From Ovis canadensis (lineage: Eukaryota; Chordata; Mammalia; Artiodactyla; Bovidae), in contig NC_091245.1 in NCBI RefSeq assembly GCF_042477335.2, positions 28,654,501-28,718,500 of the forward strand: a stretch of 64,000 bases of DNA, written 5' to 3'. The number at the start of each line of letters is the position of its first letter. Position 1 is the first letter of the stretch. The notes under the pieces are model-generated. The model was not told the origin of the DNA. It saw only the letters and a list, made by a program, of their open reading frames with translations, and did not search any database. Below are positions 13,280-37,600 of the stretch, piece by piece. The position numbers and the translations under genes are program-made.

Positions 13280-14573
13280 TCTTTATTATCCAATCAAGAC
13301 AGTTCAAATGTTTTTAGGCACTTTTTAACTTCAGTTAACCACTAAGCAGTTTACCATTACATAGTTAAAACATTAACATATCTTTAAGTTTGTGTTTTTT
13401 AATACAAGGTGTTAGGGCAATTGTGCAACATTTGGTTAATCACATAAAATATTATAGTGGAGTTTCTTATTCACATTCTATAAGCATCTCTAATTCACAG
13501 AATTTCACATATAGTTTCCTCAATCAGAGATGTGAAGGCTACCAAAAACCGAAAATGTTCTTTATAACTTCAATAAATTTTATGAACCTCAACCATTGCA
13601 AAGATCAATGAAATATCTACCAAGGTAAATGAATGACATACCAAGTTAAATGAATGACATTTGTTACATTAAAAATGAGATTTTCCTTTTAAAGTCGCCA
13701 AAACCATTAATATTCAACCAAAAATTGTTGGAATTTGCAAGGTTTCATGTGTGTATGTGTTTAAATGTCAGGGTGGTATGACCTTCTTTGGATGTAAAGC
13801 TGCTGAAAGCTGAACTGTACAAAAGAAATCTTTAGAGAACAGAGACTTTTCTTTACATATTTATTCCGAGCCTGCCCTTCATCTTGTCTTGGCTTTCCAC
13901 ATTGATCCAATTGTAGCACTTCCTGGAGCGAGCTATGTTCTAATCAGCAACATCAGGAAGAGAAAATGCAGATCTCATGTCACGCTCTTTGAAAAGAGTG
14001 AATGCATTCTAAGCTATCAGGAAATGTAAGTCACGATTTAACTTTCAATAATTTTTATCTGCAATGGACATGAACAAGAAATATGGAACGAATCCTTCAT
14101 CTATTCAATAGGTGCACGATTTCTATTGAGATGAGCACCATGTAGCAGAATTTTACTTTGTTCTCTGTCCCATATAGTTGGGCTGACCTTGAAACCTTAT
14201 CAGTAGGCTCTTTTGTAGTGATGCCTGGATAATCTCCACTGAATGGTGAATCAAAGGAGATACAACCTAGAGGCACTAAATCACCTAACATTACTTCCTG
14301 TTAAGAATTTTTTCCCCTTATAATTGCTGAAAAGCTATGGAGTTAAAGCAACCACGCTGACTCCCCAAAGACAATGGTCCAAACTCCCAAATGAAACGGT
14401 TGCAATTCTCTTGGATTGCCAAAAAGCAGGAATGGATCACTTAAAAGAAAACTAGGTCTGCACGTTGTCACCTCTCCACAAACGTTAACATCCTACAGAC
14501 TAATATTTGAACATTCCCCCCACGGAATCGAAATACTGGCCAACGGTGGCCACAGGAGTCTTCCAATCCGTGC
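13280..14573. other. AT-rich intergenic downstream of the carrier retrogene
   Basis: A short duplicated AAATGAATGACAT unit lies near 13620-13662. No poly(A) tract belonging to the retrocopy survives next to 14573. Confidence 0.4.
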
Positions 14574-15566
14574 CTACTTTCGGGATTTGGGCGCTTGAGG
14601 GACTGGAGGGCGAGGCAATTTGAAATAGACCTTGACCGAGTCGTAGATGAACCACTGCAGAGCAGTCAGGGTGCCAATCATGATGATCCGGGCGAACAGG
14701 CCTTTCCACACGCCCTTGAACCCCAGTCTGCGGAGAACGTCGAAGGCCGTGCTGCCTTTCTCCTTGTTCAAAACGGACACGACAGAATCCGCAGGGTGGG
14801 ACACCACGGCACAGAAGACGCCAGCGATGTAGCCAGCCACAAAGGTCACGGCCAGCTGCTCACTTTTGGTGCAATGGCTCTGCGGCTTGGGCACCACGTA
14901 CTTGTAGAGTGCCTCGACCGTGCGCTCGAAGCAGGCGAACTTCATCATGGTGTAGGGGATCTGGCGCATCCAGAGCGGCGCCACGCCTTTGTAGAAGGCC
15001 CACAGGCCCTCCTCGCCGTACATCTTGGGGGCCGCGGCCCGGAGCGTGCGGGCATAGCCCTGCTGCGTCTGCATGCGAACCTTCACCGCTTCCATCGGGG
15101 CCAGGGCCACGTCGGCGAAGAACTCGGCGCTGGCTGAGGCAGCCAGGTACAGCCCGGTTCTCCATTCGTAGGCCTTCTCCTGGCTCAGGAGCTCCGCGTA
15201 GCGGATTTTGAAGACCTCGTAGAGGCCAAACTTGAAGAGGCCCTGCATGGAGTAGCCTAGAAAGGTCGGGGCCCAGCCTCGGGCCAGGCCGCGCAGCCCG
15301 TCGTCCCGCAGTGTCACGCCAAAGCCGCTCAGGATGCCCTTGTACTTGCTGGGGTCCACCTGCATGCGACATTTGACCAGGTCCAGAGGCACGATGGCCG
15401 TGTGCGTCAGCCCGCAACTCAGCATCCCGCCCAGGCCGCAAAGCAGTAGGTACTTCGTGGAGCCGTACTCGTAGCTGGACTCCTCCAAGGCTGCTGCCCA
15501 GGGCCTGCCCTTGAGTTGGCCTGTGCTTCTCCCCCGCAGGGCTCGGTAACCGCCAGCATCACACAT
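14574..15566 (-). CDS. SLC25A3-like mitochondrial phosphate carrier, intact intronless retrocopy
   Basis: The uninterrupted frame encodes 330 aa closely similar to SLC25A3, the inner-membrane carrier that imports phosphate with protons for ATP synthesis. The three mitochondrial-carrier signatures are visible: PLDLVK at about residues 60-65, PMEAVK at 157-162 and PADSVV at 258-263, each opening a two-helix repeat. The parental gene is multi-exonic, whereas this copy runs without introns, so it arose by retrotransposition. No poly(A) tract or target duplication remains, so it is old. The open frame reaches a GTG at 15587, but the first ATG is at 15566 (GCGGCC before it, G at -3), so I start there. 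The N-terminal leader is shorter than the parental presequence but still arginine-rich (R8, R11, R13, K19, R21). The C-terminus ends about ten residues early. Coding DNA is GC- and CpG-rich in an AT-rich setting. The SCGLTHTA segment resembles, from memory, the muscle exon-3A form of SLC25A3. An intact frame suggests selection but does not prove expression. Confidence 0.88.
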   Translation of the reverse strand: MCDAGGYRALRGRSTGQLKGRPWAAALEESSYEYGSTKYLLLCGLGGMLSCGLTHTAIVPLDLVKCRMQVDPSKYKGILSGFGVTLRDDGLRGLARGWAPTFLGYSMQGLFKFGLYEVFKIRYAELLSQEKAYEWRTGLYLAASASAEFFADVALAPMEAVKVRMQTQQGYARTLRAAAPKMYGEEGLWAFYKGVAPLWMRQIPYTMMKFACFERTVEALYKYVVPKPQSHCTKSEQLAVTFVAGYIAGVFCAVVSHPADSVVSVLNKEKGSTAFDVLRRLGFKGVWKGLFARIIMIGTLTALQWFIYDSVKVYFKLPRPPVPQAPKSRK

Positions 15567-15660
15567 GGCCGCGCTGGGTCTAGGCACACGCTTCCCTCAG
15601 CCTGAGCTCTTTCCTCCCTCAGGGGCCCCAGGGCACTGCGCATGCGGCTGAACTCCCCCC
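15567..15660 (-). promoter_or_regulatory. GC-rich upstream region of the carrier retrogene with an NRF1-like site
   Basis: TGCGCATGCGG at 15637-15647 matches 10 of 12 positions of the NRF1 consensus (YGCGCAYGCGCR) and lies about 70 bp before the ATG. NRF1 drives many nuclear genes for mitochondrial proteins. There is no TATA box. Whether transcription starts here is inferred. Confidence 0.4.
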
Positions 15661-16685
15661 TCCCCCACCCACCAACGTGAGCTTGCTAACCCAACGGTCT
15701 GGTCTGAGCGAGGGACAGGTCGTGCCAGAGCCCAAAGATCTTCGACCGCTCTCTACCGACGCCTGCACACCCGCTACCGGCTTGGCTGCCTTTGGATCTC
15801 AACTGGCTCTTGAAATTTTAAGTAGGGGCATCGCCTCACCCCTCACCTCCAGGACCGCCCTTCAGCCTGCCCTCAAGCTTTTGGGCAAATAGGCTTCTGG
15901 TAACGACAGGAACCCCGCCCCTCAACCCTCCTCAGCTTCCTCCTCAGTGGTCCCTAGGTCTCACCTTCCGTGGTAAGGCCTTCCATGCCTAGTGTGTCAA
16001 GTGGCTTCTGTCCAGCTCAGCAGCTTAGTCTTCTACAAAGATGCTAAAAAAATAAATCAACAAGTACAAGCATGAGTAAACACATGAATAGGCAAGTAAG
16101 TAGATGAGGAGATGAGTGACAGGGTGAAGAGTCGCCATGCACTCTTTCAGGAAGAGTTGCCTGCCTGAAAGGCCTTTCTGGAGTCCTCACTTAAACAGCC
16201 CGCTTATGGTAATGGTCATCTCCATGGCCACAGAATGTTCTATGGAGGGAATGCACAGAGAGAACCAGGAACCTGGCATTAGAGGACCAGTCCCTGAGCT
16301 TCCAGCCTTATCTAACATTCTTACAGTGCAGACTGGGAGGATACATCTCCCCAAAACCCACACTCCACTCCTTTCCCTCCAAGAGTTATTGTGGGGTCTT
16401 AGGAAGGATGGAGGTTCTCCCTAGATTGAAAGAGAGATGCTGATTATTTTCATTCATTCAATGTTGTTTCGTTGACTACTGAATCCCTGCCATGATTTTG
16501 GAGATTAGGAAAGTAAAAAATCATCTTTCCTTTTAAGGGAGCTTGTAGTCTCATTGGCCTGGAAAATGAGAACGAAATGATTCTACTTGTAAAAAAGTAG
16601 CATGTATTCATACATTCACTCACTGTGTGCTGGGCCCTATGCAGGGTTAGGGATTTAGCAAAGAGTCAGGCATATTCTTCAAGTG
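15661..16685. other. Intergenic, nothing recognised
   Basis: Moderately GC-rich to about 15970, then AT-rich. No exon seen. Confidence 0.4.
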
Positions 16686-20274: not shown

Positions 20275-21055
20275 GCAGACACTGTAGTCTACTCAGAAGT
20301 CGACAGCTTATTTATTTCTCTTTGCTACAGAACTCTGTTCAGGTATGTGGCAAACATCCTTTGAATTCTACATCATATTTGCTCACTCATGACATTTCTC
20401 ATGATATTTTAACTTGCATTAGGGTATTTGATTTTTGGCCATAAATACTTTGGTCCATTGATGGTTTCTCTACTCCAGTTACACAAATATATATCTGAGC
20501 ATGATGTCCTTACCCCTGTGTCCATGTCTTTATGTATGTCTTTCCACTTTCCTCTTTCACTTCATGTCATTTTTCAGAATCAGGGGCAAAGTATGTATGC
20601 CAGAAAACTTTCCTTTATTAACCCACCTTCTTTGTGTTTTTCTAGTAATTACTGTTTTAAGTAGTTTGCCAGATATTCATTTGTATTTAATCTGGACTGA
20701 TGAATTGCCATTTTTAAAAACTATAGGAAATACTTCAGACAAGACTGTAAGAACACTGCTTCCCTTGTTTAGGTATCAGGTCATGGTTCAGTGTCCTATC
20801 CAGTCTCCGTGGGTGTTGGCCAACTCGATTATCAGTGAGAGTGAACTGGAGTAGCTGCTTGAATCATTTTCTTAGCTTTAACACATATGGTGAACTTAAG
20901 CAGGTAACTTCATCTCCCATCATGAATCTCTATATCCATCATAAACATTTAGAGAATATAGTTTTGGGTATGTCATTTTTTTAAAAAAGCACATGAAGGA
21001 CACTGAAATTAACAAATTTAAGTTCTTAGAAACTGAATGGGAAAAGCAATTGAAT

Positions 21056-22161
21056 GAAGTCCTTCTGCTTTACTGACTTTGCCAAAGCCCTTGACTGTGT
21101 GGGTCACAATAAACTGTGGAAAATTCTGAAAGAGATGGGAATACCAGACCACCTGACCTGCCTCTTGAGAAACCTATATGCAGGTCAGGAAGCAACAGTT
21201 AAAACTGGACATGGAACAACAGACTGGTTCCAGATAGGAAAAGGAGTACGTCAAGGCTGTATATTGTCACCCTGCTTGTTTAACTTATATGCAGAGTCCA
21301 TCATGAGAAACGCTGGACTGGAAGAAGCACAAGCTGGAATCAGGATTGCCAGGAGAAATATCAATAACCTCGGATATGCAGATGACACCACCCTTATGGC
21401 AGAAAGTGAAGAGGAACTAAAAAGCTTCTTGATGAAAGTGAAAGAGGAGAGTGAAAAAGTTGGCTTCAAGCTCAACATTCAGAAAACGAAGATCATGGCA
21501 TCCGGTTCCATCACTTCATGGGAAATAGATGGGGAAACAGTGGAAACAGTGTCAGACTTTATTTTTGGGGGCTCCAAAATCACTGCAGATGGTGACTGCA
21601 GCCATGAAATTAAAAGACGCTTACTCCTTGGAAGGAAAGTTATGACCAACCTAGATAGCATATTCAAAAGCAGAGACATTACTTTGCCGACTAAGGTCCG
21701 TCTAGTCAAGACTATGGTTTTTCCAGTGGTCATGTATGGATGTGAGAGTTGGACTGTGAGGAAGGCTGAGTGCCGAAGAACTGATGCTTTTCAACTGTGG
21801 TGTTGGAGAAGACTCTTGAGAGTCCCTTGGACTGCAAGGAGATCCAGCCAGTCCATTCTGAAGGAGATCAGCCCTGGGATTTCTTTGGAAGGAATGATGC
21901 TAAAGCTGAAATTCCAGTACTTTGGCCACCTCATGTGAAGGGTTGACTCATTGAAAAAGACTCTGATGCTGGGAGGGATTGGGGGCAGGAGGAGAAGGGG
22001 ACGACAGAGGATGAGATGGCTGGATGGCATCGCTGACTCGATGGACGTGAGTCTGAGTGAACTCTGGGAGTTGGTGATGGATAGGGAGGCCTGGCGTGCT
22101 GCGATTCATGGGGTCGCAAAGAGTTGGACACGACTGAGTGACTGAACTGAACTGAACTGAA
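21056..22161 (+). mobile_element. BovB (RTE) LINE, 5'-truncated, reverse-transcriptase frame with one stop
   Basis: The frame at 21054-21938 covers the BovB reverse transcriptase from the DFAKALD motif through QGCILSP and the catalytic YADD (about 21375-21386) to FGHLM. There TGA (21936-21938) interrupts, and the same frame continues after it to 22145. The stop sits where other copies here read CGA or a related codon, consistent with CpG decay. The 3' end is the usual ACTGA repeat. The endonuclease part is missing, so the copy is inactive. It is a retrotransposon and not a host gene. Confidence 0.94.
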
Positions 22162-34109: not shown

Positions 34110-34695
34110 ATGAATGCAGACCTTACAAAGCAGGCCAAGAAGATGCTTCGTACCCCCAAGTGCTCGCGGTGCCGGAACCATGGCTTCCTGGTACCAGTCA
34201 AGGGCCACGCGGGCAAGTGCCGCTGGAAGCAGTGCACCTGCGAGAAGTGCTACTTGATCACCGAGCGCCAGAAGATCGTGGCTGCACAAAAGATGCTCAA
34301 GAAGCAGGCCTCTGGAGAGGAGCAGGAGGTGGCCCTGTGCGCACAGGGACCCCAGCTGGCCCCCGGGGGCGCGGCCGCCACCCCAGGCCCAAGCTTCTGC
34401 CCGCTGCTTCCGCTTGCCCCTTTGGGAGACGCGCAGCCGGGCCCTTCGGGCCAAGCGGCCACCTGCCTCCCTGAGAGGCCCCCGCGGGGCCAGAGCCCCA
34501 GCCCGAGTGCCTTCCAGCCGGTTCTGGGCGGCCACAACCGCGGCCACGTGGGCCTGAGCGAACAAGCAGCCAGGGCCAGGCCCAGCTCTCTGGAGCCCCA
34601 GCTGACGGCGGAGGCCGCCGGCCGGGGCTACCCCGGCTGCCTGGAGCTGCGCAGGCTGCCGCGGCCTGTGCCGAGCCCGCCGTTCACCGACTTCG
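34110..34695 (+). CDS. DMRTB1: DMRTB1 coding exon 1
   Basis: This exon encodes residues 1-195 plus one base and includes the whole DM domain. The donor is TTCG|GTAAGA. The ATG has G at -3. The exon is very GC- and CpG-rich, which also creates long open antisense frames that are not genes. Confidence 0.95.
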
Positions 34696-37600
34696 GTAAG
34701 ATTCCCGGTGCCCTGAGCCTTTGTCCCGCTGTTGGTTCCTCCCCGGGCTGCTGCCTCCCCACCTCCCTCACTCTGGCGTCCCAGGCCAGCCGCGGGTATG
34801 GGCCCTTGGGGTGGGGGTGGGAAGATGCTTTCTAGAGGGAATCTTGCTTCGGGATACCTTTTTCTGAGTAGGCATTTGGGTTTGGTGCCTTTTTGCAAGA
34901 AGGTAAAAAGAGAGAAAGGAATGGGTGGTTCTGAGGGGTTAATTTTAAAAAACATTTAGCTATAGTCTCTGCTTTTCCATTCCGGGAGAAAAAAAAAATG
35001 GCCGCACAAAAAAAAAAATGGCCCCCCAGTCCGCTTAGCTGAGGCTCCTCCTCCCAACAGAGAGGATCGCGGGAGAGTGGCCATATTGCGCTTGCGCAAC
35101 TCTTCCCACCCTTTTCTGGTGCTGGAGGCTCCTCCCCCAGAACGTCCTCGTGGGTGGGCCAGCGCCTTATGACTGCACCTGCGTCCCTCCGCCCACCCCT
35201 CCCCCATCTTCTGTGCCCTAGTCAGCTTGCTCCTCAGCCGTGCTCTGGCCCAATGGCTGTGTATGGGCGTTCTTCCCACCTGTTTCCCAGGCATGGATGG
35301 GAATGAGACCTCTTCTCTGCTCCCTACAAGAGAACAGTCTATTGAGACGTGGTTGCTGTTTTTCTCTCCTCCCTCCACATGCATAAATTACATTGTTCCC
35401 TAGGTATTGTAACTTTCACTATTATAATTTCAAGTCACATGTAAGTTTGAGACTTTTAAAAAGGGGCTCATTTTGGGTGCAGACACGTTTTTTCTGGTTT
35501 TCTCTATGGGAGTGTGGTAGAAAGAGCGCAAGTCTGAGTCAGGACGCTGAGGGGCTGCTCACTTGGTAATCTTAAGCAAGCTCCTTCCTTCTGTGACAGC
35601 CTCGCCCCTCTGTAGGCTAAGGGGATTGGCCTGATGCTCTCCGAAGGCCAGTTCTGCCTTCTGGGACGTTCTAGGAAAATATAGGTCCCTAGAGAACTAG
35701 ATGAGGAAGACAGATCTGAAAAGCAGTTCTAGGAGAAGGATACCTTTCTACGGATATGGAGCCTTTCTTTGTTCCATCAACTGAGCACTGTGTGCCCAGC
35801 ACTAGTGATGAAAAGGTGAAGGGGGGTGAGTCAGATTCCTTGCCCTCAAGGATCTTGTCCTTGTGAAAGAAAAGGACATCACAGAGAACTCTAATAACCA
35901 GTGGTTTAGCTGTGGTCTGAAGGAAGATCAGGAGCTGAGCACTGAGGATTCAAGAAGGCAAAGTGGGGTTAGGAAAAAAAGCCTTCCAAGCAGAGAGGAT
36001 AGCATCTGCAGAGGCCCTGAGGTGGAGAAAGAAGGCGCTACTAGTGATCAGACAGTGAGGCTGGAGTGAAGGCAGGAATGCAGTCTGCGTGGGCTTCATG
36101 GCTGGGCCAAGGACTTTTGCTGAGGGCAACAGAACATGGTTGAAGGGTTTAAAAAGCAGGGAGGATCAAAAGCATAATGGATGTGGGAGTTGTCTGTGAA
36201 TGGATATGAGTGTTTATTTATACTGCTACCTTCAGACGATAATATGGTGCCCTTTTTTCTAGCTCCATGTGTTTTTAACACTTCCCTCGTTGCATGTCTT
36301 TTCAGGGCTCCCTCTGAGCATCAACTCAGATTCTGTGGTGGGGTCTGAGTGCCTGGAGAGAGAACCTCCCAAGCTGTACCCCAGCTGCTCCAGCATGCAC
36401 CCCTACCGCCCTTTTCCTCTGGGCTACCAGGATGCATCCCCAAGTGTGGGGATCCCTCTGCAGCAGAGTTTCCAGCACCTGTCCTATAGCCACTACTATG
36501 GAGGAGGCTTGGTGAGTCCCATTCCTGATATTTTCGAAGTTCCTCCCTATTTCAGCTGCCCTGGCTGCTTTAACAGACTTTCTCCCAGGCAGCCAGCCAT
36601 TGTGCTCACTCTATACCAGGACATGGGCAGTGGGTGGAAGGATACAGCATTGGCCTTGTATGCTGTGCACCTCTGGGAATGCACATGTGAACAAGTTGGC
36701 CTGGGCTGTGGCGTGGGCTAAGAGACTCTGGGAGCTCAGGCAAAAAGGAATGCAGACACATCTCAGATAAACCTGGGGAACAGCCACACGGGAACCTGAA
36801 TGACCACCAGCCTTGATCCATGGAATGCCAGTCAATACTAGGTACCAGATAGGAAATAGCGCTTTCCTCGAGCCACACATTTGAGGGCAGAGTCAGGAGC
36901 AGACAAAGGTCCCCTGCTGCAAAAGAATGGCCCACTTGAGATGGCAGAGGGCTTTCAAGAGGATAGGGCACTTAAGCTTAGTCATGAAAAATATGGAGAC
37001 TTCCCCCAAACACTGGTCACCTTAGGAGATACTTGTTGAAAAAAAAAAAGGGTAAATTTAATCATTTTATAAGGTCAGTGATCAGTTACTAACTGGTGCG
37101 CTCTTTGAGCCTAGAGTTTTGAGTTCTGGAAGTTCTGGATATATAAGAGTTGTGTGAGATGTGGGTCAGGTGACCAGCTTTTGCAGCAGCGGTTGCCAGC
37201 TCCTTCCATCTTTCTCCCTTTTGGCAACCCCAGAGGGCCATCAGAACTGCAGAATAGCGAGAGGCCTGGGTGACCAGTCCTGACTTTGGCTCGTAAGGCT
37301 GGACCTGTGAGGGAGTTGACTGAGATGCAGCTCACATTCAGGGAAGTGTGGACCACTGTTACTTTTACTTTCTTCCTAAGCTACAAGCCCAACCCTGTGT
37401 GTTACAGAGATGCTGCCTTGGGTGGAGGGTAGAGAAGAGTGAGTAGAGAGCAGGCTGCTTTGGTCTAATGTGGAAAGTAAGAGAAGGGACCACAGTTTGA
37501 TGTTAACGTAGTGTAGTCATGCACTGCTCCTGCTTCACTGCAGCAGCATCTTCTCTGATCCAGATATTCTAAAGTTTTATTCAGAAATCATTTTCCATTC

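Follow-up and report, generated by a model that had tools for sequence, protein, structure and literature searches.

An intact, old SLC25A3 retrogene under purifying selection in Ovis canadensis, a probable mitochondrial phosphate carrier gene

The analysis of a 64,000-nucleotide stretch of the Ovis canadensis genome (GCF_042477335.2, contig NC_091245.1, positions 28,654,501 to 28,718,500 of the forward strand; hereafter the window) revealed an intact, intronless copy of SLC25A3 whose protein is under strong purifying selection and whose silent sites are near saturation. Judging from its sequence, we consider it probable that the copy is an old, functional SLC25A3 retrogene encoding a phosphate/copper carrier that is probably expressed in the germline. 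The entry of phosphate into mitochondria is required for ATP synthesis, and SLC25A3 also delivers copper for cytochrome oxidase; mammals are treated as having a single gene for mitochondrial phosphate entry, SLC25A3. Functional retrogenes of mitochondrial proteins are of a known kind, and a second mammalian phosphate carrier gene would be moderately surprising. In the available portions of the open-licence literature, no description of a functional SLC25A3 copy was found among the matches listed, and databases may already list the copy as an unnamed SLC25A3-like locus.

The open reading frame and its parent gene

The following features were recorded, with positions given in the window unless another sequence is named.

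14574..15566, minus strand: SLC25A3-like mitochondrial carrier open reading frame (ORF), 330 amino acids, single exon, from Pfam and the parent comparison
15480..15566, minus strand: first 29 codons, candidate new N-terminus, with no detectable homology to parent exon 2
15372..15389, minus strand: carrier signature 1, PLDLVK, residues 60-65
15081..15098, minus strand: carrier signature 2, PMEAVK, residues 157-162
14778..14795, minus strand: degenerate signature 3, PADSVV, residues 258-263, identical in the parent
14531..15920, no strand: CpG island that spans the ORF and extends about 350 bp upstream of it, GC 0.62, CpG observed/expected (o/e) 0.715
15638..15920, minus strand: promoter-like words upstream of the ATG, consensus matches only
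34110..34835, plus strand: DM-domain ORF, a synteny marker and not part of the copy gene, beginning 18.5 kb to the right of the copy
About 2985-3856 of L018 (G000:C23:49757500-49763500): decayed SLC25A3 processed copy, from a DNA search

The single-exon frame starts with ATG, contains no internal stop codon and matches the Pfam family PF00153 (Mito_carr) in three stretches (E 6.8e-50). The first-pass annotation had described it as an intact 330-codon SLC25A3 retrogene with three carrier signatures and without a poly(A) tail or target-site duplication. The intact frame and the origin from SLC25A3 by retroposition were confirmed, and the motif PX[DE]XXK is present at residues 60 and 157; the third signature, in contrast, is degenerate (PADSVV at 258), which is normal for an SLC25A3-type carrier and is found likewise in the parent. 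Regarding the hallmarks of retroposition, no poly(A) tail was detectable in the 1000 nt downstream of the stop codon, where A runs reach 6 at most, and the flanks 15567-16000 and 14100-14573 share no repeat of at least 9 nt, with three common 8-nt words against 2.64 in shuffles, in agreement with the loss described earlier. Both hallmarks are expected to vanish with age and are therefore not required of an old copy. Homology of the flanks to the 5' or 3' flank of the parent was not detectable either (57/200 and 24/200 shuffles scored at least as high as the real sequences), and the only repeat family returned by a repeat search was located within the ORF.

A protein search of the assembly hit the window copy, two distant carriers and a group of five matches of exon size on C3 (174,023,921-174,026,478). 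The C3 locus (L009) is the parent SLC25A3, its exons having splice-like boundaries; the one TAA flagged in the exon-5 match is situated at the start of the intron, right after the exon. The copy was compared with the parent in five readable in-frame pieces comprising 240 codons, and 226 of these entered the statistics after removal of 14 from the C-terminal tail. Parent exons 4/5, 7/8 and 8/9, which lie apart in the C3 locus, are contiguous in the copy, with no intron at any of these three readable junctions, and 184 of the 226 amino acids (81%) are identical between the two. With respect to the alternative exons 3A and 3B, the copy agrees with 3B at 31 of 40 residues and with 3A at 28 of 40, and at the 12 sites that differ between them it follows 3B at five and 3A at two; we lean towards a parent transcript isoform with exon 3B. 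Leu 103 and Lys 284 of the copy, located in the pieces from exons 4 and 8, correspond to Ile and Arg in the parent; human SLC25A3 likewise has Leu and Lys, and the copy may keep older states at these positions. A comparison with the human SLC25A3 coding sequence (41/30/170 differences by codon position in 287 codons) led to the same conclusion as the comparison with the parent, on which we rely instead; its longest identical run was matched by 325 of 10,000 shuffles, a weak result on which we do not build.

The two distant carriers correspond to L007 (G000:C5:65065947-65066765), with a frame open for 337 codons and 32% identity, and L008 (G000:C2:42239391-42239888), with a frame open for 290 codons and 26% identity; they may be SLC25A2 and SLC25A51, two carriers whose genes lack introns. 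A sequence search of the PDB with the copy gave eight distinct sequences, all belonging to other carriers and none named as a phosphate carrier. The AlphaFold2 model computed from the single sequence had a mean pLDDT of 37.7. No relatives of the copy were found in one scan each of collections of genome contigs and viral contigs. A 170-codon open frame (14860-15372, minus strand) overlaps the carrier ORF in a different reading frame and is probably a by-product of its G+C-rich codons.

Selection, a decayed second copy and base composition

The copy and the parent differ at 33, 25 and 132 sites at codon positions 1, 2 and 3 of the 226 codons, a skew towards position 3 that was reached in none of 20,000 random placements, with pN of 0.123, pS of 0.793 and no indels in the compared pieces. 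The maximum-likelihood codon model gave a dN of 0.117 and no finite estimate of dS, and it rejected both an omega of 1 (2dlnL 272.9) and an omega of 0.5 (2dlnL 174.8), the latter being approximately the value expected if the copy evolved without constraint and the parent did not change; as a pairwise test, it averages over the branches of the copy and the parent. Fourfold sites differ in 59 of 96 cases; at 43 of them the parent has A/T where the copy has G/C, and at three the reverse holds. This drift towards G+C violates the stationarity of the model, so that dS and any date derived from it are unusable and the likelihoods serve the comparison of omega values alone. When neutral copies were simulated under an assumed mutation bias and with indels left out, 24 of 500 runs were stop-free at half of the third-position differences, and the best amino acid identity was 0.615, compared to 0.814 for the real copy.

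An internal control is available within the assembly. When its DNA was searched with the 3' UTR and last exon of the parent, a second processed SLC25A3 copy was found on C23 (~49.76 Mb), which differs from the parent at 64/211, 52/210 and 70/207 sites at codon positions 1, 2 and 3 (30/25/34%), contains stops within both matched stretches when read in single frames, and has a CpG o/e of 0.07 and a GC of 0.416. Pairwise alignments in chosen sub-ranges gave 26 indels, including 18 whose length is not divisible by three, a count that varies with the scoring. One block, which extends from the last exon over some 210 nt of 3' UTR, aligns at 65.7%; the window copy has no detectable UTR similarity and is therefore probably at least as old as the C23 copy. 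A DNA search with parent exon 5 recovered the parent only and missed the window copy, so the number of SLC25A3 retrocopies in the assembly is at least two. Both copies are intronless and derive from the same parent, and the C23 copy differs from the window copy in its indels, its stops, the even distribution of its changes over codon positions, its depletion of CpG and its partly alignable 3' UTR. The contrast between the indel-free window copy and the decayed C23 copy is the clearest single argument for past gene status. Because of the codon-position test and this control, the open frame goes beyond chance, and evidence besides the frame itself now backs the reading of the copy as an old, intact SLC25A3 retrogene maintained by selection. 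The first-pass proposal that selection had kept an old copy is upheld by the codon-position skew, the rejection of both omega values and the decayed control; in that proposal the copy would also be restricted to ruminants and lost in human.

The base composition of the copy also departs from that of the parent, with GC4 of 0.877 (107/122) against 0.413 (45/109). In a survey of retrocopies, functional copies kept in human and mouse showed a GC4 gain (median 11.5%, 49 human-mouse pairs) and pseudogenic copies a loss (2.9%), while 31 human-macaque pairs showed no significant difference (PMC7181179). Over the same 678 nt, the parent contains 11 CpGs and the copy 51, six of them at shared places. 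The CpG o/e of the copy is about 0.77-0.78, compared to 0.715 for the island and 0.265 for the whole window, and the surroundings are AT-rich. This gain of CpG suggests that the island is unmethylated in the germ line, as would be the case for a promoter active there. Upstream of the ATG, GGGCGG starts at 15920 and 15860, TTAAAA is located at 15821, and GCATGCGC, which we take to be an NRF1-like motif, is found at 15638-15645, its only occurrence in the window against 0.51 expected in shuffles. These words are at chance level, and chance can give them. A sigma-70/terminator scan upstream of the ORF, designed for other kinds of genome, gave no match.

Genomic position and the human counterpart

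The DM-domain ORF to the right of the copy is presumably DMRTB1, and past it GLIS1-type zinc-finger exons were located with a GLIS1 bait at about C1:28.753-28.759 Mb on the minus strand (4917-9999 of L013, minus strand). The window further contains a 294-codon open fragment of a reverse transcriptase (21054-21938, plus strand; PF00078), which we take to be BovB-like. The gene order of the copy, DMRTB1 and GLIS1 equals that of the human cluster in print, SLC25A3P1/DMRTB1/GLIS1 (PMC11641332), and it agrees with the first-pass statement that the copy occupies the same interval as human SLC25A3P1 beside DMRTB1. Since the same neighbours occur in the same order, it is very likely that the copy and SLC25A3P1 descend from one insertion that predates the split of the two lineages.

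In one study, human SLC25A3P1 is called a pseudogene and assumed not to be translated, and it is listed among nine genes that are at least 20-fold up in ovarian cancer compared to healthy non-reproductive tissues; the 20-fold figure is relative to non-reproductive tissues, and the study gives no level for reproductive tissues or healthy germ cells (PMC10070997). A differentially methylated region has been reported at or near SLC25A3P1 (chr1:53,904,769-53,904,934), with a table value of 15 in what we take to be the column of CpG counts (PMC10351111). The human locus shares with the window copy its designation as an SLC25A3 copy and its DMRTB1/GLIS1 neighbours (PMC11641332) and differs in being called a pseudogene (PMC10070997), the comparison made here being one of gene order alone.

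The status given to the human locus (PMC10070997), together with an N-terminus unlike that of the parent, would suit a gene that was functional through most of its history and recently lost its expression or function here, leaving the intact frame as a relic. We regard such a loss as unlikely, as the frame has neither a stop nor an indel, the CpG o/e over the ORF is still 0.77, and at neutral divergences of 0.05 and 0.10 substitutions per site only 1/400 and 0/400 copies, respectively, simulated under assumed rates remained free of stops and frameshifts.

The predicted carrier and its significance

Mutagenesis of PIC2 and SLC25A3 has tied a number of residues to phosphate or copper transport or to stability (PMC7924939). 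Fourteen of these were placed in the copy by motif and spacing, without alignment to the PIC2 sequence, and all 14 are kept: PIC2 C21, C29, H33, C44, Q47, V48, D124 and L127 correspond to C43, C51, H55, C66, Q69, V70, D152 and L155 of the copy, and Q86, K90, Q176, C225, G268 and M275 to Q108, K112, Q202, C252, G289 and M296. The placement did not extend to six further PIC2 positions, at which exchange for the MIR1 residue had no effect on silver transport (PMC7924939). The spacing is consistent with this placement, as H55 and L155 of the copy are separated by 100 residues, equal to the published mouse H75 and L175 (PMC7924939). Exon 9, as far as compared, has the fewest replacements, with 30 of 31 residues kept, and exon 4 has the most, with 42 of 60 kept. 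The latter region, and the 42 of 226 compared positions that differ, including C111F, which immediately precedes the Lys assigned to PIC2 K90, could point to a retrogene with a changed role, for example one mainly in the import of copper or of another substrate with reduced phosphate transport. This possibility overlaps with the explanation that we prefer and is improbable in our judgement, given that the residues of the phosphate-specific mutants (the equivalents of K90, L127 and M275) are kept (PMC7924939).

Residues 1-29 of the copy contain five K/R against three D/E and have no detectable similarity to parent exon 2, with 888/2000 protein shuffles and 1952/2000 DNA shuffles scoring equally well. 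Since an in-frame stop is also present 33 nt 5' of the ATG, the parental presequence is absent or unrecognisable, and the insertion site may have supplied the N-terminus. Import of mitochondrial carriers can proceed through internal signals, so the missing presequence is no argument against a mitochondrial location. The copy thus resembles its parent in the carrier motifs, the placed transport residues and most of the compared amino acids, and differs from it in the absence of introns, the higher GC4, the first 29 residues and a C-terminus that is seven residues shorter.

Descent from an older vertebrate paralogue through intron loss, with no retroposition in mammals, would be compatible with silent sites so near saturation that they set no upper bound on age; the 81% amino acid identity to the parent across the compared core makes this origin very unlikely, and the available running text of PMC7924939, gene lists aside, mentions no second mammalian gene. 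An ordinary processed pseudogene left open by chance is scarcely credible even though a dead SLC25A3 retrocopy does exist in the genome on C23, as the codon-position skew, the protein conservation, the lack of indels and the rise in GC4 contradict neutrality, the codon-position test doing so for most of the history of the copy.

As a functional retrogene, the copy would have a promoter of its own in the CpG island and be transcribed from it, germ cells being the most likely place, and its protein, with a replaced N-terminus and no parental presequence, would enter the mitochondrial inner membrane through internal carrier signals. There it would act as a proton/phosphate carrier and probably also as a copper importer, supplementing or replacing SLC25A3 wherever it is expressed. 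The parent is situated on C3, which we take to be an autosome from the chromosome naming; escape from X inactivation would therefore not explain such a gene, unlike in the case of SLC25A31 and PDHA2. The likeness to SLC25A31 (ANT4) and PDHA2 is one of idea, namely that germ cells have a mitochondrial gene of their own (PMC12377818), and by this analogy a testis role like that of SLC25A31 is plausible.

We tentatively entertain a broader scenario, which we hold to be somewhat less probable than its negation, in which placental mammals have had a second germline phosphate/copper carrier with a new N-terminus that still works in ruminants, human SLC25A3P1 being the same gene, either recently lost or misnamed. 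If the functional reading is true, a conserved intronless second carrier would be a candidate for the energy supply of germ cells and for fertility, and human SLC25A3P1, treated as a pseudogene in methylation and cancer studies, would be worth re-examination.
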